Source: a virus. From it: DNA of 20,917 bases. Shown one piece after another: positions 259-15,285 of this stretch. The stretch lies in IMG/VR virus record IMGVR_UViG_3300021356_000207, positions 1 to 20,917 of that record; one strand, written 5' to 3'. The notes under the pieces are model-generated. The model worked only from the letters and a program-made list of their open reading frames with translations, searched no databases and was not told where the DNA came from. The translations under genes and the position numbers were made by a program. Positions within the stretch are counted from its first letter, which is position 1. The number at the start of each line of letters is the position of its first letter.

Positions 259-1065
259 CTACAGAAGCTCCGCTTCCTCTACTGCCACCTCACCATAATC
301 CTCTGGCCCTTCAGGCATTGGTGGCTCTTCCTCAAAGACCTCAGCCTCAATGATAGCGGCGGAACGCGTGGTCGTTTTGTCTTGCGACGGTTTGTCGGCT
401 TCCTGTACGTCTGTTGCATAGGTGTAGTTCTCGTTGTCGTGTTCGAGCATCTGGTCCAGGTCAGCTGACGACGGCAGATACTTCGCGATACGGCGCAGCA
501 CAGACTTCTTAGCCATTTCCTCAGGCCACTCAGACCACGGGCCTCGACCACTTGCGCGACTGACACCTCGCACCTTAGCTATCTGCTCCATATTCATCAG
601 CTCAACAACCGAGCCGCCGTCCTTCATTTTGGCGACGGCGTAAACACCAATCATAGGACCGCGCTCACCAAACCAATCAGGCTGGTGGTCAGGCACGTCG
701 TCGTTCGCCGGGTTGTAGGCAAACTTGTCCTTCTCATGCACCGTCTGCGCGGTAATGGTGCTTATCTGTCCGCTGTTGCGCAGCTTCTTGAGCAACCCAG
801 CAACCATAGGCATGTACTGCGCTGACCCTTTGAACTGGACGATAGCCGCCTCGCGTCCGTCTAGAATCAGACCGTCCTGCGCCGCCTTTTGGCACGCCGC
901 GTAAATAGAGGAGCGATTGCACTTCAGGATGCCGGGGTTGTTTTGCACCGCCCCAACGATGGTGCGCATGAACTTCTGACTGGGGATGTGCGCTGGCAGC
1001 ACAGACTTGAACTGACGCTCGTGCAATGCGAGGTCTTTGGTGAATACTGCAATTTCGTTGCTCAT
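259..1065 (-). CDS. recT: RecT-family single-strand annealing protein
   Basis: This is a 268-aa RecT-type recombinase, which anneals complementary single strands during phage recombination and replication. The core, about residues 20-200, carries the family's recognisable course: LPAHIPSQKFMR, then a stretch with NNPGILKCNRSSIYAACQKA and DGLILDGREAAIV, then MPMVAGLLKKLRNSGQI and a basic SVLRRIAKYLP segment. The C-terminal ~60 residues are very acidic and low in complexity, ending in EEAELL. Such tails are usual for this class and may contact SSB (inference). The ATG overlaps the exonuclease stop (TAATG) and has GGGAG eight bases upstream, so the two proteins are translationally coupled. The gene ends one base away from a convergent mini-ORF. 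Confidence 0.95.
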   Translation of the reverse strand: MSNEIAVFTKDLALHERQFKSVLPAHIPSQKFMRTIVGAVQNNPGILKCNRSSIYAACQKAAQDGLILDGREAAIVQFKGSAQYMPMVAGLLKKLRNSGQISTITAQTVHEKDKFAYNPANDDVPDHQPDWFGERGPMIGVYAVAKMKDGGSVVELMNMEQIAKVRGVSRASGRGPWSEWPEEMAKKSVLRRIAKYLPSSADLDQMLEHDNENYTYATDVQEADKPSQDKTTTRSAAIIEAEVFEEEPPMPEGPEDYGEVAVEEAELL

Positions 1066-1988
1066 TATTTCTTCTCCCGAATGGTGAATTGACGATAGCC
1101 CTTGCGACCGCCGTATGTCTTGCCGACCATGTCAGCCGTGATGAGGGTAGGCTCGGTGTCCTTGGTGCGGCCACAACTCAACGTCAGGTTATCTGAGGTC
1201 ACCTTGTTGATGTCGTCGCCAATGAGGTCAAGCATTTTCGCTTTCAGTTTCTTGGCTTCGTCGTCTGCTTTCTTTGCTTCAGCCTTCCACGTTTTGTAGC
1301 GAGCCATAAAGTCAGATAGCTGCTCATCAGCTTCTATTGTTCCGGCGCCGCCGCCTGGGTGTAGCTCAATAATTACGTCGGCGTCCATCTCATAATTTGG
1401 CGTAGGCTCGACACCCGCCTCGATGCTGCGCCAGAACTCGGATGCTTTCTTGCGAATGCCTGCGCCCACCTTAGGGTTGCGCTCGCGGAAGATGAGGTGA
1501 AGCGAGTTACCGCCAACCAGTGCGGCGATGATGGCACCGGGGCGTTGCGCAATCTCAAGCTGGTGCTGCACCTGCACCTCGATGTGGTCAGGCGCTTCGT
1601 CTTCAGTCCAGTTGTCTCGGTAAACCCACTGGTCGACGTTCTTGCACTCAATAAGCCAGCCAGCGTATTCACCCTCAACCACCTCGTAATCGAATGACGA
1701 GCCGAGACGGGCGTAAGGGTCGCGCATGTAGTCCTTCAGGGGCTTAATCGCGGCGTTAAGCTCCATGCCTGCCAGCTGGGCTATGCCTGACTCTAGGGCG
1801 CGACCTGCGCGCATCCTGAAGTTATCGGGGAACTCAGGTGTCTCTCCTGAGCGCTTGCGGTGCCAGAGTTCAAACTCGGTCATGTACGGGCTAAGGCCGA
1901 ATAAGGCAGCAGTCTCAGTGCTGGTCAGGTCTTGCTTTCGCATGCCGAGCCAGTGCTGCTCGTTCTCCGGGGTGATGCGTTCAATCAT
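1065..1988 (-). CDS. YqaJ-type viral exonuclease (RecT partner)
   Basis: This 307-aa protein is a lambda-exonuclease/YqaJ-like nuclease that would resect double-strand ends to make the single strand used by RecT. Near the N-terminus it has TSTETAALFGLSPYMT, the family's substrate-contact motif. RAGRALESGIAQL follows, then the catalytic core SSFDYEV...WLIECKNV (the D and E-x-K residues) and EVQVQHQLEIA with the conserved glutamine. A Lys/Glu-rich helical stretch is near the C-terminus. An upstream in-frame ATG at 2039 would add 17 residues, but it would place the promoter and operator inside the gene. ATG 1988 follows an AAGAGA ribosome-binding stretch and is preferred. It is first in the leftward recombination operon. 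Confidence 0.92.
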   Translation of the reverse strand: MIERITPENEQHWLGMRKQDLTSTETAALFGLSPYMTEFELWHRKRSGETPEFPDNFRMRAGRALESGIAQLAGMELNAAIKPLKDYMRDPYARLGSSFDYEVVEGEYAGWLIECKNVDQWVYRDNWTEDEAPDHIEVQVQHQLEIAQRPGAIIAALVGGNSLHLIFRERNPKVGAGIRKKASEFWRSIEAGVEPTPNYEMDADVIIELHPGGGAGTIEADEQLSDFMARYKTWKAEAKKADDEAKKLKAKMLDLIGDDINKVTSDNLTLSCGRTKDTEPTLITADMVGKTYGGRKGYRQFTIREKK

Positions 1989-2002: not shown

Positions 2003-2018
2003 TTGTCACGAGTGACAA
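2003..2018. promoter_or_regulatory. Palindromic operator, class 1
   Basis: TTGTCACGAGTGACAA is a perfect 7-bp inverted repeat around GA, 14 bp upstream of the exonuclease ATG. The same TTGTC-N6-GACAA frame occurs exactly at 14419 and 14484. It directly follows the proposed leftward -10 box, so a bound repressor would block transcription of the recombination genes. The symmetry and recurrence are seen in the sequence; operator function is inferred. Confidence 0.75.
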
Positions 2019-2046
2019 TGATGAATCAATATGACACATGCGTCAA
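2018..2046 (-). promoter_or_regulatory. Leftward promoter of the recombination operon
   Basis: On the minus strand TTGACG (2046-2041) is followed after 17 bases by CATCAT (2023-2018), a fair sigma70 pair (5/6 and 4/6). The class 1 operator begins at the -10 box. The -35 lies in a second, imperfect palindrome (ATGAC-N6-GTCAA, 2031-2046) related to the site at 11565. The promoter would drive the exonuclease and recT. Confidence 0.5.
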
Positions 2047-2060
2047 CAACGAATTGAAAG

Positions 2061-2126
2061 GCGAAAGTTACCTACCTCGGGGAGCGAAAGTTACCTACCT
2101 CGGGGAGCGAAAGTTACCTACCTCGG
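2061..2126. repeat. Three tandem 23-bp direct repeats (iteron-like)
   Basis: Units begin at 2061, 2084 and 2107, with the core GAAAGTTACCTACCTCGG identical in all three. The first two full 23-bp units are identical; the third diverges after CTCGG. The 23-bp period is about two helical turns. They fill the gap between the endolysin stop and the recombination promoter. A fourth copy, 16 of 18 core positions matching, sits alone at 12168. There are no variable spacers, so this is not a CRISPR array. Confidence 0.9.
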
Positions 2127-2142
2127 AGGTGCTTGGAGTCCG

Positions 2143-2598
2143 TCAAGATAGCTCGAAGTGCGGCGCATCAATGAACGGTCTGCGACCTTGCGACCTGCGT
2201 TTATCAACGTAGCTGTTCATGGCCTCTTCCATAGTCCCCCGCCAGACACTGATGTTGCTCACAGTCCAGGCGCCGCCCCAGCGTACCGAGGCAGTGTGGT
2301 GAATGGCTGCTTCTTTGAATGCGTCTGCAATCTCGTCGTACAGAGCAAGCTCCCAGCTAATGCGCGGCCCGATGTACGCAACGACATCAACCGCAAGCCC
2401 GGTCAGGTGTTTGCTGTGCATGGTCTTGGTTGCACCACGGTCGTATAACTCCTGCTGCGCTCTAACGGTTCTGAGTCCGCAGGTCACGCCAAAGTCGACC
2501 TCGGTGAGATTGATAGCCTCATGGACGATGGAGCATAACTGCGGGTGTACGCCTTCAAGACGCTGTAGTGACTTTTTCGACAGCCTGTACGTTGACAT
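2143..2598 (-). CDS. M15-family endolysin (L,D-peptidase type)
   Basis: The 151-aa product is a zinc-dependent M15/VanY-like peptidase that cuts peptide cross-bridges of peptidoglycan to release phage. SKHLTGLAVD fits the S-x-H-x-x-G-x-A-x-D zinc-binding motif, and DAPHFELS at the C-terminus supplies the third ligand histidine. GLRTVRAQQELYDRGAT is the typical preceding helix. It is one-domain, with no signal peptide and no cell-wall-binding domain. ATG 2598 begins STYRLSKKSLQRLEGVHP, the usual N-terminus of this family. ATG 2613, five codons upstream, is possible, and neither has a clear ribosome-binding site. The gene sits alone and leftward, upstream of the recombination operon rather than in a late lysis cassette. 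Confidence 0.88.
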   Translation of the reverse strand: MSTYRLSKKSLQRLEGVHPQLCSIVHEAINLTEVDFGVTCGLRTVRAQQELYDRGATKTMHSKHLTGLAVDVVAYIGPRISWELALYDEIADAFKEAAIHHTASVRWGGAWTVSNISVWRGTMEEAMNSYVDKRRSQGRRPFIDAPHFELS

Positions 2599-2652
2599 TA
2601 TATTTGACGCCATAGACAATAATGAGGTTCGGATTCTAACACCCAAATTCAC

Positions 2653-2856
2653 ATGAGAGACAACAAGAAACACCTGAAGCAGAGCATTATTGATAACGTT
2701 CGCAAGCACGGGAATGTTGCGAAGGTGTGCCGTCAGTTCTCGCTTACACGGCAGTGCGTTTACCTATGGAAGCAGCAGGACGCTGAGTTTTCCAGGGACT
2801 TCATCCAAGCCGTTGCCGATGGCCGTAAGGCTATGCGTGCGTTCCTTGCTGGCTGA
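2653..2856 (+). CDS. Small helix-turn-helix protein
   Basis: The 67-aa product has a homeodomain-like helix-turn-helix: IIDNVRKHGNVAKVCRQFSL followed by TRQCVYLWKQQDAEFS, like the N-terminal DNA-binding part of some terminase small subunits and transposase HTH proteins. The basic N-terminus and the aromatic W in the recognition helix fit DNA binding. Its stop overlaps the helicase start (TGATG). No Shine-Dalgarno lies close to the ATG. A weak promoter (TAGACA, 16 bases, TCTAAC) would place the transcript start only a few bases upstream, so a nearly leaderless message is possible. Role is probably regulatory or in DNA processing for the helicase operon; the target is unknown. Confidence 0.7.
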   Translation: MRDNKKHLKQSIIDNVRKHGNVAKVCRQFSLTRQCVYLWKQQDAEFSRDFIQAVADGRKAMRAFLAG

Positions 2857-5542: not shown

Positions 5543-5560
5543 TTATCCTATTTCGCAATG
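5530..5560. terminator. Hairpin across convergent stop codons
   Basis: CATTGCGA (5530-5537) and TCGCAATG (5553-5560) are exact 8-bp inverted repeats around a 15-base loop. The loop holds the TGA of the rightward 57-aa gene and the stop of the leftward gene. There is no long T-tract on either side, so an intrinsic terminator is not assured. A bidirectional stop or mRNA 3'-end protection is the natural reading. Confidence 0.4.
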
Positions 5561-5932
5561 AGAGCCGCACCCATCCTCTATATCTATCTCATCGAAAAAG
5601 CCCATCTGTAACTGCGGCATAACATCAATAAATTCAGTGAAGGGCTTTTGCGCTTCAGCCAAAATGTCTTGCGTCGAGCGATGACGCCGGAAAAATAACC
5701 TGTCCTGCTCGCCTGCTCGCACCCTGCGATATTTCCGCTCCATTCGGTTCATAAATTCAAAGCGATGCGGCTCATGCTTGGCTATCGTCCACAGCTTCCG
5801 GTCGCTTTTTTTCCAGCAAGTCACGCAGTTACCTAAATGTTCGGGCAAGTCTAAATCGAAATTTTGATTGGCCCACCAGTGACGGACCTGCTCTTTTGTG
5901 CAGTGCGTCATAGTAATCAATGGGTAAACCAA
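5543..5932 (-). CDS. PAPS-reductase-like protein, C-terminal part after frameshift
   Basis: This frame encodes the second half of a phosphoadenosine-phosphosulfate-reductase-like protein. VYPLITMTHCTKEQVRHWW is followed by FDLDLPEHLGNCVTCWKKSD, with the family's C-x-x-C segment, and by a C-terminal GCGSHCE. The only upstream initiation codon is a TTG at 5932, in the middle of the domain, so separate initiation is unlikely. It continues the protein encoded just upstream in another frame: moving +1 at about 5933 joins ...PRAR to LVYPLI as expected for the family, giving about 280 residues. Either the gene is broken, the sequence has one extra base, or the ribosome shifts here. Confidence 0.75.
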   Translation of the reverse strand: MVYPLITMTHCTKEQVRHWWANQNFDLDLPEHLGNCVTCWKKSDRKLWTIAKHEPHRFEFMNRMERKYRRVRAGEQDRLFFRRHRSTQDILAEAQKPFTEFIDVMPQLQMGFFDEIDIEDGCGSHCEIG

Positions 5933-6383
5933 CCCTAGCTCTTGGGCGTTTTTCGCTCATTCGGTCGAACTCGTCTGGCCGAATGCCAATGGCTGTCATA
6001 TGGTTTTTCTTAAAACCAAGAGATGCCCGAAGCGACTCCATTGGGAATGTTTTCAATCTTTCGGAGCACTGGTTGTATGACGCGTTAGGAACGCCTGACT
6101 TTGCAATAAAAGCCTCAAACGGCTCGCCATTTCGCGATGCGCTTTTGTAATCGACAACTTTATGGGTGACTCCTATTCCATGCCTAGGATTGATGACGGC
6201 TTCAACCCACGTCAAATCGAGCCCCCATTCTTGGTCGCATCGATGAGCAAAATCCAGCGTGTTTTCGTGCTCCAGACCTGTGTTAGCAAAGACAAATCGA
6301 AAGTCATATTCGTCTGCTTTGTTGTTCAGCAGCCACCAGCACATATAAGCAGAAGTCCGGCCGCCACTAAAACTCACAAACAT
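5829..6383 (-). CDS. PAPS-reductase-like protein, N-terminal part before frameshift
   Basis: This is the N-terminal half of a PP-loop ATP pyrophosphatase of the PAPS reductase/DndC-like class common in phages. FVSFSGGRTSAYM holds the PP-loop SGGxTS. It is followed by FANTGLEHENTLDF, the NASYNQCSERLKTFPM segment and AIGIRPDEFDR. In the continuous frame the last 32 residues after PRAR (R154 counted from the GTG at 6395) are unlike the family, and a stop follows at 5829. The true second half lies in another frame (5543-5932). ATG 6383 follows AAGGAG closely; a GTG at 6395 is an alternative. The primase stop is just upstream. Substrate is unknown; no dnd or cysteine-synthesis genes are nearby. 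Confidence 0.8.
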   Translation of the reverse strand: MFVSFSGGRTSAYMCWWLLNNKADEYDFRFVFANTGLEHENTLDFAHRCDQEWGLDLTWVEAVINPRHGIGVTHKVVDYKSASRNGEPFEAFIAKSGVPNASYNQCSERLKTFPMESLRASLGFKKNHMTAIGIRPDEFDRMSEKRPRARVGLPIDYYDALHKRAGPSLVGQSKFRFRLARTFR

Positions 6384-6396
6384 TGTCTCCTTCACT

Positions 6397-8430
6397 CTAC
6401 TCGCCCTCTTCCTTCGGTCTAACGTAAGCCCATATCTGCCTGCCGTTTTGGCGGCGTCTTACTCGCTTCCAACCCTCGTGGGTGAGCACCTTCCCGATAC
6501 GCATCTGCATGCCGTGGTTCTGTTGGGCTTTCGGTATGTCCATCTTGCGCATGAGTTGCTGAACGGTGACCATGTCGCGCCCCGGTAGCTCGGCAATGAT
6601 AACCTCTTGCCACGGGTCAGACTCATAGCGGTCTGCCTGCTCCTGCTCCGCCAACTTGGTCTCGTAGTCGGTCAGCCACCATTGTTCGCCCTGTAAATAC
6701 CAGTGCACGGCCTCAGCCCATATCTGCTCGCGGTTGTCGATAATCCTTTGCAGGTTGGTCTTCCCTGTCTTCACTGGCTGGAAACGTCGAGCGCCTGTAC
6801 TGTCGCGAAGGTAGCCCTGCTCGGGGTTCAGTGTACCCACCATGATGCTAGTGCGCGGCACCTCGATAACACTGCGCCCAAACGGCGGTCGATATCGGTC
6901 AATGCGTCGGCTGAGAAAGTCCTTCAGTGTGTTGTGGTCCGCCTTGTTAATGCTCGCAAGCTCGGCGACCTCGATGACCCACTTGCCAGCCATAGTCATG
7001 GCTGCGTCTTTGCTGGAAATGTCCGGCAGTCCTGCGGTGTAGTACTCCTCACCAAAAAGCGCCTCGATACAGGTCGACTTTTGTTTGCCCTGTACACCCT
7101 CGAGAACCAGCATGTGGTCGACTTTGCATCCGGGGTTTAGAATCCGAGCGACTGCGGATAACGGCCAACGTCTGCCCACGCAACGGTTGTATTCGTTGTC
7201 AGCAGCCCCGAAGCAGTCAATTAGCAGCATGCCTATGCGCGGCTTGCCGTCCCACTTCAGGGACATCAACCAGTCAGCCAGCGGGTTGAACTTGTTTTTC
7301 TCCGCAATGGTGTTCAGGCAGTTGTGTGTGAGCTGTAGCGATATCTTGCACTCTTGGCGTTCGAGCCATGCCAGAGCCAAGACGTCGTCGGCGTCGTTGC
7401 GTCCACGCGGGTAGGTTTCTCCCTGCTCGTGCCAAGGCGGCGGCGCGGCGATGGTGACCTCGCGAGTTAGTGAGTTCAGTTTGAAACAACCCGTCGTCTC
7501 CGGGTGCCACCCCAACAGGGTCAGCGCGTTGTTGACTCCAGCCACGATGTCGCCCTTGCTGTTTGTAAGCAGCAGGCTCCTGATGCCGTCGGTGCTGGTT
7601 TCGGCCACCGCCTTCGGTTCGGGTTCGGGTTCAGGCTGCGGTTCAGGCTGCGGTTCGGGTGCTGGCGCTGGTGCTGGCTCCCATACAGGTGATGCCGCGC
7701 ACAGTTTAACGAGCTCGGCGCGGGTTCCGCCTGCGGCTAGCCAATCGCTCACGTCCCCCTTGTCGGGTAGGTCTGGCAGTTCGACAACATGCACGCTTCT
7801 TGCCGTCCCGTGCAGGTGTTGTGCGACGTTCTGGGCGTGTTTCCTTCCTGGTTCGTCGTTGTCCGGCAGAATAAACACCGTGCGCCCTGCGAAGTACTGG
7901 CTGTAACTCGCTTGCCATTTCTCAGCACCCCCGGCGCAGGTCGTTGCGGTAACGCCAATCGCTGCTAGTGCGTCGGCGTCCTTTTCACCCTCGCACACGA
8001 TGATACCCTTGGTGCTGTTCAGCAGTTCGGGCAGTCGATACGGGACGCGGGTGACGCCCTTCAGGTTCCAGGCCCAGCCGTTACCGTCGGGGCGCCGCTG
8101 CCTAAAATCCTTGGGCTCATATCGCAACACCTGGTAGAGCAACTCGCCGTCTTCGCTGGCGTAGTCGTACTCAGCCGCTATGGTGCGTCGTGCTTTGCCG
8201 TTCCCGCTCCCGTTTGTGCGCGTGGGCGTCGGCCATAGTCCTCGGGACTTCAGCGCGTCGATAACGTCGGTCTGCCCGCAGCCTGCGAAGCACTTAACGA
8301 CCACCCCTTTATCACCGTCGGCAATGCTCAGGCTCGGCGTTCGGTCTTCATGCGCTGGACAGCAGGCCATCCAGCCGTCGCTCGTTTTTTTAGGGCGATT
8401 GAGCCCGTTCGCGATTGTTTCCGCGTCCAT
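6397..8430 (-). CDS. Primase-helicase (CHC2 zinc, Toprim, VirE/DUF5906-like ATPase)
   Basis: This 677-aa replication protein combines primase and helicase. Residues 20-60 hold the primase zinc ribbon (CPAHEDRTPSLSI, ligands about C24, H27, C47, C51). Residues 142-205 form a Toprim domain with CEGEKDADAL and the metal-binding DND at 190-192. A low-complexity Pro/Glu/Gln linker (about 251-272), encoded by short repeated GC-rich triplets, separates this from a VirE/DUF5906-like P-loop ATPase. Its Walker A is the variant EGVQGKQKST (about 444-453), with WVIEVAELA acting as Walker B and RRFQPV near the end. It would synthesise primers and unwind the phage origin. A weak AGCAGA ribosome-binding site precedes ATG 8430. 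Confidence 0.93.
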   Translation of the reverse strand: MDAETIANGLNRPKKTSDGWMACCPAHEDRTPSLSIADGDKGVVVKCFAGCGQTDVIDALKSRGLWPTPTRTNGSGNGKARRTIAAEYDYASEDGELLYQVLRYEPKDFRQRRPDGNGWAWNLKGVTRVPYRLPELLNSTKGIIVCEGEKDADALAAIGVTATTCAGGAEKWQASYSQYFAGRTVFILPDNDEPGRKHAQNVAQHLHGTARSVHVVELPDLPDKGDVSDWLAAGGTRAELVKLCAASPVWEPAPAPAPEPQPEPQPEPEPEPKAVAETSTDGIRSLLLTNSKGDIVAGVNNALTLLGWHPETTGCFKLNSLTREVTIAAPPPWHEQGETYPRGRNDADDVLALAWLERQECKISLQLTHNCLNTIAEKNKFNPLADWLMSLKWDGKPRIGMLLIDCFGAADNEYNRCVGRRWPLSAVARILNPGCKVDHMLVLEGVQGKQKSTCIEALFGEEYYTAGLPDISSKDAAMTMAGKWVIEVAELASINKADHNTLKDFLSRRIDRYRPPFGRSVIEVPRTSIMVGTLNPEQGYLRDSTGARRFQPVKTGKTNLQRIIDNREQIWAEAVHWYLQGEQWWLTDYETKLAEQEQADRYESDPWQEVIIAELPGRDMVTVQQLMRKMDIPKAQQNHGMQMRIGKVLTHEGWKRVRRRQNGRQIWAYVRPKEEGE

Positions 8431-8444
8431 AATTGTCTGCTTGA

Positions 8445-8690
8445 TTATTTAACGAAGGGAGGCTGGAACTCGTACTCGTCGCCGGGCTCGGGTATCGGCT
8501 TGCCTAGCAGAGTAACCTTAACCAGTGGCGCTGGAGTTTCCTCTTCGAGCTTTTTCTTGCGCTTGCCTGAGACGTAAATGAATGAATCCACGTCGAAATA
8601 CTTAGCGACGTCGGCAGCAAACTGCGCGGCCTCCGGGTCGAGTTCCTTGAGTCGCTTCCAGGCCTTAACGTTCTCTTCGCGGTCAGTCAC
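8445..8690 (-). CDS. Hypothetical basic/charged protein (81 aa)
   Basis: I place the start at GTG 8690, which overlaps the previous stop (GTGACTGA) and has AAGGTGG at good spacing. A longer frame from 8786 would lie over the upstream gene. The product has a helical N-terminus (REENVKAWKRLKELDPEAAQFAADVAKYFDV), a basic GKRKKK stretch and a Pro-rich end (YEFQPPFVK). No family is recognised. It ends 14 bases before the primase start and is probably co-transcribed with it. Confidence 0.65.
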   Translation of the reverse strand: MTDREENVKAWKRLKELDPEAAQFAADVAKYFDVDSFIYVSGKRKKKLEEETPAPLVKVTLLGKPIPEPGDEYEFQPPFVK

Positions 8691-8886
8691 CGACCACCAC
8701 CTTGCCCGGTTCAACTTCGGGCGTCCTGAATCCATCGGCGTATGGGTCGCGACCCTCGACAAATGGTTGCGCCTTAGGTGGCACATAATCCTTGTTCTGT
8801 CGCATGCGCATGTCGTGCAGCCCTGAATTTACGCGATGCATTCGAAACACACCCCGGTTGAACGGCTCACCCTTTAATGATGCCAC
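8683..8886 (-). CDS. Hypothetical protein (67 aa)
   Basis: The GTG start at 8886 lies inside the previous gene's end and follows AGGGGGT. ATG 8841 after GGGGTG is an alternative that would remove 15 residues. The product is polar, with RMRQNKDYVPPKAQPF and GRDPYADGFRTPEVEPGK, and looks partly disordered. No family is recognised. Its overlaps on both sides show it belongs to the leftward replication block. Confidence 0.6.
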   Translation of the reverse strand: MASLKGEPFNRGVFRMHRVNSGLHDMRMRQNKDYVPPKAQPFVEGRDPYADGFRTPEVEPGKVVVGD

Positions 8887-9064: not shown

Positions 9065-9287
9065 CACTTAACCTCCGGGCGCGGCGTATCGCACACGCGC
9101 TAATAGCTGTTCTAATTTTCGAGCAGGCCTCGTCGTCCCGGTGAGGCTGTGTGCAGATAATGCGCAGCGCCTTGAACAGCCTAGTCATGGTGACGTCGTC
9201 GGCCATCACCTCGCGCAGTGCTCTATCGTCGCCGCATGAGAGACGGTCGAGGAAGTCCACAAAATGCCAGTGTTCAAAGTCTTTCAT
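9057..9287 (-). CDS. Hypothetical protein (76 aa)
   Basis: The ATG overlaps the upstream HTH gene's stop (ATGA), with GGTGAGGG just before it. The product opens MKDFEHWHFVDFLDRLSCGDDRALREVM and ends in a basic helix (IRRARRLSD). The family is not recognised. Position directly downstream of two HTH genes makes a regulatory accessory role possible, but nothing in the sequence proves it. Confidence 0.6.
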   Translation of the reverse strand: MKDFEHWHFVDFLDRLSCGDDRALREVMADDVTMTRLFKALRIICTQPHRDDEACSKIRTAISACAIRRARRLSDA

Positions 9288-9568
9288 CCCTCACCACCCG
9301 CGTTGCGTTGCGTCTGTATTCCTGCGCAACTACCTGCATTTCGCATCGCATCCGCGTGCAGGTCGAGTAACCTCAACCCCAGCGTCATGCGCGGTTCTTT
9401 GACGTCGCCCCTGGCGAGTCGCTGCAAGCCCTGAGCGTTACAGTTCAGGTGTCGGGCTATCGTCGCCACCTTCCAGCGTTTGCGCCCTGATATCTCCAGG
9501 ATGAGGCGCGACCAATCCATAGTGGTTAGGCGCTGGTAGAGTTCTTCGCCGGGCGTCGCTGTGCTCAC
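9284..9568 (-). CDS. Cro/CI-like helix-turn-helix protein (second paralogue)
   Basis: The 94-aa product has the small XRE-type HTH seen in phage Cro-like proteins. WKVATIARHLNCNAQGLQRL forms the two helices, followed by GDVKEPRMTLGLRLLDLH, the typical conserved K/x-P-R...G-x-R-L-L-x-L end. It is a paralogue of the gene immediately upstream; both share DW...ILxI, RRW/KRW, EPR-(V/M)-T and a leucine-rich last helix. The GTG start shares one base with the upstream TAG. Likely a DNA-binding regulator; the TTGTC-N6-GACAA and TTGAC-N6-GTCAA palindromes are candidate targets (inference). Confidence 0.75.
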   Translation of the reverse strand: MSTATPGEELYQRLTTMDWSRLILEISGRKRWKVATIARHLNCNAQGLQRLARGDVKEPRMTLGLRLLDLHADAMRNAGSCAGIQTQRNAGGEG

Positions 9569-9813
9569 TACTCCCCCTCCCCCGCATGGTCGCGGTACAT
9601 GTCGTACAAATGCACGGCCACCGTCACCCGAGGCTCGGCAATCTCAGACCTATGCAGCCGCCCTATCTCGGCGCTCAATACCTGCACGTTATCGCCGCAA
9701 CCGCGTTCGTTGACCAGATACCGCGCTAGGTCGGCATTTCTCCACCGTCGCGCAACCCTGATGGTTAGGATTACCTTCGGCCAGTCGGCGTTTGCTAGCA
9801 TATATGCCATCAT
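9568..9813 (-). CDS. Cro/CI-like helix-turn-helix protein (first paralogue)
   Basis: This 81-aa protein is the tandem partner of the HTH gene below it. Its core reads DWPKVILTIRVARRWRNADL, then LSAEIGRLHRSEIAEPRVTV and a final HLYDMY helix. Relative to the partner it has an insertion of about six residues (near NERGCGDN) between the two HTH helices, which may alter the turn. ATG 9813 overlaps the preceding stop (ATGA) and has GGGAG at ideal distance; ATG 9828 would lie inside the previous gene. A regulator role is likely. Confidence 0.68.
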   Translation of the reverse strand: MMAYMLANADWPKVILTIRVARRWRNADLARYLVNERGCGDNVQVLSAEIGRLHRSEIAEPRVTVAVHLYDMYRDHAGEGE

Positions 9814-10259
9814 TCTGACTTCTCCCATTTAAGCTTCATCTGCTGATGTTCGGTGTCAATGCGCGGCCGAGACTGCACATTCCAATTGCCGCCGCCAGAC
9901 TCCCCCAAACAAGTCCACCCAGCGCCGCGCAGTGACGCCCCTCCCTCGCTTGGTAACGTGTAGGTTATGAGCCGCCTATACCCAAGGGCCTTTGTCGCTC
10001 TCCACGCGGCCCCATAGAGAAATGAGCAGGCGTTTCTTGTTCCGTCGGTGCAGCACCTATTCACCTCAAGTGTCCATCCGTCATCTGCATGACGCGAAAC
10101 CGGACGCCCAACAATCGCGACGCCGCAAATGTCGCCGCACTTGCTAGCCGCTAAACTAAATTTATGCCCGACTGTCGGCTTGTGGTTGCGATGGTGCAGC
10201 AAAACGAAGGCGTTAGCTTCTCTAAGCGTTGTTGGAACGATAACGAGCGGCGCCATCAT
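9810..10259 (-). CDS. XF1762-like protein (GNAT-like fold)
   Basis: The 149-aa product matches the phage family often labelled XF1762. LREANAFVLLHHRNHKPTVGHKF is followed by CGVAIVGRPVSRHADDGWTLEVNRCCTDGTRNACSFLYGAAWRATKALGYRRLITYTLPSEGGASLRGAGW, each part strongly characteristic. The overall pattern resembles a small acetyltransferase, but no substrate is known. The start overlaps the previous gene (ATGA), with TGGAG eight bases upstream. The family is common in phage accessory blocks, in keeping with the small genes around it. Confidence 0.82.
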   Translation of the reverse strand: MMAPLVIVPTTLREANAFVLLHHRNHKPTVGHKFSLAASKCGDICGVAIVGRPVSRHADDGWTLEVNRCCTDGTRNACSFLYGAAWRATKALGYRRLITYTLPSEGGASLRGAGWTCLGESGGGNWNVQSRPRIDTEHQQMKLKWEKSE

Positions 10260-11564: not shown

Positions 11565-11580
11565 TTGACAGGTGTGTCAA
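11565..11580. promoter_or_regulatory. Palindromic operator-like site, class 2
   Basis: TTGACAGGTGTGTCAA is an inverted repeat with 6-bp arms around GGTG. It fits TTGAC-N6-GTCAA, the class 1 palindrome with the T and A of the half-site exchanged. It overlaps by one base a minus-strand TATATT (11585-11580) that could serve as -10, with a weak -35 TTGCGC 18 bases away. The same -10-then-palindrome order is seen at 2018 and 14484. Confidence 0.5.
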
Positions 11581-14044: not shown

Positions 14045-14383
14045 TTAAACCTCCAATGCTGCTGCGTGGTCGACTAGGTCGTAAACCGCGTCACATGCGC
14101 GAATTCGTGCAGCCTCATCATCTAAGCGCGTGGCTTGTTCAATGCTCGCAACGAGTGAGGTTAGCGCGCCGCCAGGCTCTACAGCGCGGTCGGCTATCAG
14201 CATGTGTGCCGTGTGGAAGATTGAGCCCCATGCTTTTTGCGCGGCTAGCGTGCGCTCTTGTCGTCCCGTGAGGGCGATGTTCGACAGGAACGCGAGAAAT
14301 TCGGCAATCTCGCCTAGCGGGTTAGGTTCGCCAGATGCTGCGCGGTCGCAGATGAATTGTGCGATGTGTGTGTGCGTGGTCAT
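14045..14383 (-). CDS. Hypothetical protein, first gene of leftward block (112 aa)
   Basis: ATG 14383 is chosen because the longer GTG start at 14425 lies in the operator. The product is helical: IAQFICDRAASGEPNPLGEI, FLAFLSNIALTGRQERTLAAQ, then an acidic DDEAARIRACDAVYDLV. No domain is recognised. It is the gene next to the divergent control region and so should be under direct operator control. It ends three bases before the DUF7227-like start. Confidence 0.6.
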   Translation of the reverse strand: MTTHTHIAQFICDRAASGEPNPLGEIAEFLAFLSNIALTGRQERTLAAQKAWGSIFHTAHMLIADRAVEPGGALTSLVASIEQATRLDDEAARIRACDAVYDLVDHAAALEV

Positions 14384-14418
14384 GGTTGTGTGCCTGCTTG
14401 GCTGTGAATGTGAGTCTA

Positions 14419-14434
14419 TTGTCACCTATGACAA
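14419..14434. promoter_or_regulatory. Palindromic operator, class 1
   Basis: TTGTCACCTATGACAA keeps the exact TTGTC-N6-GACAA frame and lies 35 bp upstream of the leftward ATG 14383. It is 49 bp from the next palindrome at 14484. No convincing -10 sits directly next to it on the minus strand. Confidence 0.7.
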
Positions 14435-14455
14435 CGACCACGACCAGAACCAATA

Positions 14456-14484
14456 TTGTTTGGCTGCTAAACATTATTTGTATT
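14456..14484 (+). promoter_or_regulatory. Rightward promoter for 14543-15285
   Basis: TTGTTT (14456-14461) and TGTATT (14479-14484) are separated by 17 bases, each 4/6 to consensus. The operator at 14484 begins at the last base of the -10, as at the leftward promoter at 2018. It would drive the two genes to the right. Confidence 0.45.
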
Positions 14485-14499
14485 TGTCACATGTGACAA
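14484..14499. promoter_or_regulatory. Palindromic operator, class 1 (perfect)
   Basis: TTGTCACATGTGACAA is a fully symmetric 16-mer. It lies just after the proposed rightward -10 and 43 bp before ATG 14543. Together with 14419 it places two repressor sites in the divergent gap, a usual layout for an early-gene switch. Confidence 0.8.
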
Positions 14500-14542
14500 G
14501 CAAGGAGATAATAGCTCCACATTCACAAAGCGGAGCACGCAA

Positions 14543-14812
14543 ATGAAAAGCAACCTAACTGACGCGCTATGTACTCGGGCAATAGCTCTAGACAACCTTA
14601 ACGAGGCACGCCTAGCAGCTGCAGAGTTACGCGAGAAACTGGGAGGTGATGAACTACAGCGCGTGGGTTTCCGATGCGACGCGGTTTATTGGTCCGAGAC
14701 TATGAGGCACGCGGCGCTTGGCGCAATACATGAGCTACTCCAAAGGTACTGCGATGAATACAGTGCAGCTTGTGACCGAGTCGTCGAGCTAAAAGCGAGC
14801 AGCAAGCCATGA
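14543..14812 (+). CDS. Hypothetical helical protein (89 aa)
   Basis: ATG 14543 follows CGGAG by seven bases. The 89-aa product is largely helical and charged: LDNLNEARLAAAELREKLGG, then LGAIHELLQRYCDEYSAACDRVVELKAS. No domain is recognised and no HTH is visible, so it is not an obvious repressor. It is coupled to the next gene by ATGA. It is first in the rightward direction from the operator region. Confidence 0.65.
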   Translation: MKSNLTDALCTRAIALDNLNEARLAAAELREKLGGDELQRVGFRCDAVYWSETMRHAALGAIHELLQRYCDEYSAACDRVVELKASSKP

Positions 14813-15285
14813 GAGTCCGAGTCTATTACAACCTGAGCCGTTCGGTGTGGTCCATCAAAGCGATGGAAGGCGAACACAAAGGGCGTGTTATCGGCTACGC
14901 CAACAGCGCGCTGTTACGCAATGCGCACACGGTTGTCAGCGAAGCCAGTCGCCAGCGTGTGCTGCGCGAGCAAAGGAAAAACGTTCACGCGTACATAGAT
15001 GGGGAGCTAGCGGTTACGTGCGGGTACCGTGAGCGCCTAATGACTCCGAGCGAGTCGAATGCTCTTTACCATCATCAATCTGGTATGAGTTATTTTTTTG
15101 GCTATGAATACGTCTCCTACAACCCGTACCGGGTCAGCCATTTTGTATGGGAAGACACTGGCGAGAGTACCAAAGGGGAGCGGCTGCCCGAGGTATATTT
15201 GAGGCATGACCGCAAGGTGCAGGCAGTACCGAGTGATGCTCCTACCTGGAAGCAGGAACACGGGGCGAAGTGGGAGCACTCGTAA
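14809..15285 (+). CDS. Hypothetical phage protein (158 aa)
   Basis: The ATG overlaps the preceding stop (ATGA). The product opens RVRVYYNLSRSVWSIKAMEGEHKGRVIGYA, then VVSEASRQRVLREQRKNVHAYIDGEL, a pattern (N-L...W-S-I, R-V-I-G, R-V-L-R-E-x-R-K-N-V-H-A) that I recall from phage hypothetical proteins. Its function is unknown. The C-terminus is aromatic and polar (MSYFFGYEYVSYNPYRVSHF). The AT- and G-rich non-coding stretch follows. Confidence 0.68.
   Translation: MRVRVYYNLSRSVWSIKAMEGEHKGRVIGYANSALLRNAHTVVSEASRQRVLREQRKNVHAYIDGELAVTCGYRERLMTPSESNALYHHQSGMSYFFGYEYVSYNPYRVSHFVWEDTGESTKGERLPEVYLRHDRKVQAVPSDAPTWKQEHGAKWEHS

Follow-up and report, generated by a model that had tools for sequence, protein, structure and literature searches.

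Control regions of related and model phages

Shared operators at several promoters are a common phage strategy. In lambda (OL/OR) and in P22 (CI/Cro), as at the locus described here, palindromes of about 16-17 bp cover the -35 and -10 elements of divergent promoters, more than one operator is present, and recombination genes lie within the regulon. Our phage differs from these lambdoid sets in the sequence of its sites, in having no recognised CI-like repressor or integrase, and in carrying putative operators also at separate yqaJ and helicase promoters. The operators and stoperators of mycobacteriophage L5 likewise represent one type of site found at several places in the genome; they are asymmetric and numerous, whereas the sites reported here are few, palindromic and promoter-bound. 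Podophage ctEw122 (MW202640) has related TerL, portal, MCP, RecT and YqaJ proteins and also carries paired palindromes between divergent operons. In this phage, unlike ours, these are two TGTTG-N9-CAACA palindromes, one of them next to a P22-Cro-like gene, and one of the divergent operons leads to exonuclease-RecT. Judging from the two sequences, the layout is common to both phages and the sequence of the palindromes is not, a shared arrangement with differing sequence being usual for phage control regions.

The DNA analyzed here (the window) is an entire IMG/VR virus record of 20,917 bases. The portal, TerL, scaffold-like protein and MCP that it encodes are similar to those of podophages, among them BPP-1 (for the portal) and two assembled genomes, MW202640 and MW202722. 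G001, a contig of a near-identical relative, extends the window by 19.8 kb leftward and contributes tail and virion genes. The genome is incomplete, and among the scanned window proteins and the G001 ORFs (read by eye) we recognised no integrase or CI-like repressor; lysogeny is therefore not supported by the window or the adjoining 19.8 kb. Two Planctomycetota MAG contigs were found among genome contigs, and because both are without the motif they do not settle the host. The window also encodes a PAPS reductase-like gene (5543-6395) in two overlapping frames, 5543-5932 and 5829-6395, which suggests a frameshift or a sequencing error.

An intergenic palindrome at predicted promoters

Scanning the whole window for TTGTC-N6-GACAA returned three exact matches, at 2003, 14419 and 14484, precisely where the original prediction had placed them; as the record and the window are identical, this is also the count for the full record, with no match within genes. 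Dinucleotide shuffling gives an expectation of 0.05 per window, which replaces the 0.02 originally proposed, and none of 100 shuffles contained three matches. The reversed control pattern is absent from the window, and the half of no other 6+6 palindrome recurs three times there (maximum of two per half in 60 shuffles). All three sites are intergenic, as predicted, in a gene model that leaves only 963 of 20,917 bases (4.6%) outside genes, although for the site at 2003 this depends on yqaJ starting at ATG 1988. The set thus has the general mark of operators, an intergenic palindrome that recurs above chance. The palindrome is real, but its core is longer than first proposed: TTGTCA-N4-TGACAA is common to all three sites, and two of them have the extended form TTGTCAC-NN-GTGACAA (7-2-7 or better). 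No known regulator or operator with a matching motif was found in the titles and abstracts of the literature; the operator sequence appears to be new, in a kind of system that is ordinary and well known. The features discussed below are as follows.

259-1065, minus strand: RecT-like annealing protein (phrog_148, E=4.1e-70)
1065-1988, minus strand: yqaJ/RecE-type exonuclease, start ATG 1988 (phrog_434, E=6.6e-55)
2003-2018: op1, TTGTCACGAGTGACAA, exact match, predicted operator at the yqaJ-recT promoter
2018-2046, minus strand: predicted sigma-70 promoter of yqaJ-recT, TTGACG-17-CATCAT, its -10 ending on the first base of op1
2592-2620, plus strand: predicted promoter of the HTH67-helicase-VRR_NUC operon, TTGACA-17-GACAAT, with op2 covering the spacer and -10
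2604-2619: op2, TTGACGCCATAGACAA, one mismatch, operator-like, in the helicase-operon promoter
2653-2856, plus strand: HTH67, a 67-aa stand-alone HTH protein (HTH_28, E=0.0024, below the Pfam cut-off; phrog_4044, E=3.3e-5)
11565-11580: op5, a possible site, TTGACAGGTGTGTCAA, variant palindrome (6-4-6) in an intergenic gap covered by no relative
14045-14383, minus strand: orphan gene under P_left, no family and no relative found
14403-14427: arm of a 25-nt inverted repeat (partner 14503-14527, 80%), a putative duplicated promoter-leader module
14418-14446, minus strand: P_left, predicted, TGGTCG-17-GACAAT, weak -35, with a leader to ATG 14383; putative inverted duplicate of P_right
14419-14434: op3, TTGTCACCTATGACAA, exact match, overlapping the P_left -10
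14484-14499: op4, TTGTCACATGTGACAA, exact match and perfect 8+8 palindrome, providing the P_right -35
14484-14512, plus strand: P_right, TTGTCA-17-GATAAT, the top-scoring sigma-70-like prediction in the window
14543-14812, plus strand: orphan gene under P_right; an L5 gp82-like gene follows at 14809-15285

Promoters were predicted with a simple sigma-70 weight matrix using E. coli frequencies. Only seven predictions, occupying 0.9% of the window, score at least 10, and four of them, including the top three, overlap op1, op2 or op4; the overlap of P_right with op4 is not fully independent, because the palindrome itself is the -35 and part of the score is built in. The sites therefore lie on core elements of predicted promoters. 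The proposal that two sites begin on the final -10 base fits 2003 (minus strand, CATCAT); at 14484 the palindrome instead forms the -35 of a much better promoter, with GATAAT 17 bp further on.

The yqaJ ORF extends in frame past op1 up to an ATG at 2039, but the shorter form is supported by a conserved leader with a Shine-Dalgarno sequence ahead of ATG 1988. Our scan found YqaJ relatives in L119 (96% identical) and L120 (78% identical). Op1 is exact in L119, a near-identical relative, and in L120 it reads TTGTCA-ACGC-TGACAA, is equally far from the yqaJ start and lies at a predicted promoter in the corresponding place (TTGACA-17-CAATAT). Its arms are identical in 12 of 12 positions between the window and L120, while all four centre bases differ and the rest of the 120-bp leader is only 49% identical. 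Half-sites kept while centre and flanks drift are the signature of a dimer-binding palindrome, as selection on such a site predicts. Counting against the operator reading, the motif is absent in YqaJ relatives at 41-47% identity.

Further elements lie upstream of this promoter. Directly next to it, three head-to-tail 23-bp repeats (GCGAAAGTTACCTACCTCGGGGA) occupy window positions 2061-2129; L119 has four copies and L120 none, and they may be activator sites or iterons. In L120, a 42-aa ORF that weakly matches HTH_3 lies just upstream, at L120 positions 2630-2758; the window lacks this ORF.

Op2 separates a divergent M15 endolysin gene, which starts at 2598, from the HTH67-helicase operon, which starts at 2653. 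L120 carries an exact version, TTGTCGCAAAAGACAA, at the corresponding position, and both boxes of TTGACA-17-GACAAT are kept in the window, L119 and L120. Since the right arm of op2 doubles as the -10 box, its conservation is not independent evidence for that arm.

At 14.4 kb, op3 and op4 are centred 65 bp apart, about six helical turns. The 25-nt inverted repeat matches at 20 of 25 positions, against a maximum of 17 in 60 shuffles, and aligning its arms matches -10 with -10, -35 with -35 and leader with leader, as for a promoter present twice, with GACAAT leftward and GATAAT rightward. On this alignment, the gap reads as an inverted duplication of one promoter that gave the predicted divergent pair P_left and P_right. 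Scans with the primase and gp82 recovered no relative of this early region, nor did a scan with the 14045-14383 gene, so that comparative support is limited to op1 and op2. The leftward early operon also encodes a Mom-like DNA modification protein (9810-10259).

A fifth site may be present at 11565, where arms of the form TTGACA/TGTCAA directly follow a minus-strand TATATT, as op1 follows its -10.

A putative regulon and its candidate binder

Taken together, the palindromes are quite probably operators through which a single dimeric regulator, most likely encoded by the phage, controls at least four promoters. This regulator would bind TTGTCA-N4-TGACAA at the yqaJ-recT promoter and at both divergent 14.4-kb promoters, and would reach the helicase-operon promoter through the weaker copy, op2. 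By covering core promoter elements it would block RNA polymerase, and the genes would be shut down or timed. We infer protein binding, repression, a single protein and its phage origin. The original prediction had one repressor governing recombination and divergent early genes: operators beyond chance and a multi-promoter regulon stand, and the regulon is wider than proposed, as the helicase-operon promoter also has a site, while the term repressor, rather than activator, reflects the overlap of the sites with core promoter elements. Such a circuit would tie recombination genes to early control; for this uncultured podophage group, the sites supply a defined operator sequence and a putative regulon that spans four promoters or more.

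Could the palindromes instead serve a hijacked host regulator, such as a stress regulator, so that the state of the host times the early and recombination genes? The recombination genes are plausible stress-controlled targets, and it fits this reading that neither a CI-like repressor nor an integrase was recognised in the window or in the 19.8 kb that G001 adds on its left. We nevertheless consider it unlikely, as the literature search, at the level of titles and abstracts, retrieved no known regulator with such a site, and in a relative with another specificity the paired palindromes are accompanied by a Cro-like gene. A reading in which a replication initiator binds the sites and the 14.4-kb pair lies on either side of an origin would be in line with the AT-rich DNA between op3 and op4 and with similar TTGTC-N-GACAA arrays inside replication-like genes of unrelated phages (L041, L266, L272). 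Iterons form a clustered array at an origin; here the sites occur singly or in a pair, 12 kb separates them, and each lies outside genes on promoter elements, while op1 and op2 sit at promoters in the relatives as well, which makes an initiator very improbable.

The op3 transcript folds well (z -2.6), as it would if the palindromes acted as RNA hairpins in leaders, in translation control or termination. This is highly doubtful for the set, because op1 RNA is unfolded at the palindrome (z -0.06) and its L120 counterpart folds weakly (z -0.8), op2 and op4 lie upstream of the transcript by the predicted starts, and neither an Rfam match nor a T run was found. Recurrence by chance without function could draw on the single copies seen in many unrelated phages (at least 118 stretches with the palindrome), but with the 0.05 expected, the intergenic bias and the arms conserved in L120, its probability is negligible.

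The genes on both sides of the putative divergent operators are orphans without an HTH match, where a lambdoid phage would have a CI-like gene. The two proteins encoded at 9284-9813, proposed as HTH binders, did not bear this out, having no Pfam match even at E<=10, no HTH match of any kind and no PDB relative. They are tandem paralogues (37% identical over 70 aa); of the two, the 9284-9568 protein was modelled, with an unusable fold, and the two fold models of this analysis, this one included, were too poor for structure searching. HTH67 is a better candidate than this pair, given its weak HTH_28 match, its conservation in both operator-keeping relatives (100% identity in L119, 66% in L120) and its place directly downstream of op2. 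Its phrog match corresponds to terminase small subunits. By the logic of autoregulation we tentatively propose HTH67 as a possible binder. That a phage with no recognisable lysogeny genes places recombination, helicase and both early operons under this terminase-small-subunit/transposase-type protein, acting as an autoregulated master switch, is a more doubtful proposal; were HTH67 the binder, a small terminase/transposase-type HTH domain would be serving as a phage master regulator. Otherwise, the binder would be a host regulator or a phage protein that escaped recognition, and the operator sequence offers a handle for finding it.

The motif in other contigs

The 14-base palindrome was detected in at least 118 stretches of the collection. 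One of them, L075, is a near relative and derives from the contig of L119; none of the other matches listed resembles the window at the DNA level. Searching for pairs of sites yielded 31 contigs, all without close relationship to the window; of those we inspected, several turned out to be dispersed repeats or arrays within replication-like genes. L272 was recovered from the L119 sample but is unrelated, and the L126 site TTGAAACATGTGAAAA is not homologous and was rejected as a counterpart.

Other contigs show further repeat patterns. Several copies each of identical 16-mers, TTGTCTGTTCTGACAA or its complement, are repeated in a group of viral contigs, namely L246, L247, L251, L255, L262, L263, L265, L269, L271, L273 and L274. 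L002, L003, L026, L064 and L091 contain TGTCACCGGTGACA-type palindromes every 1-2 kb, at least some of them in coding sequence. Finally, the unrelated phage contig L254 has seven exact TTGTC-N6-GACAA sites within 2.6 kb (6176-8751) upstream of structural genes, which makes this stretch a candidate multi-operator control region.
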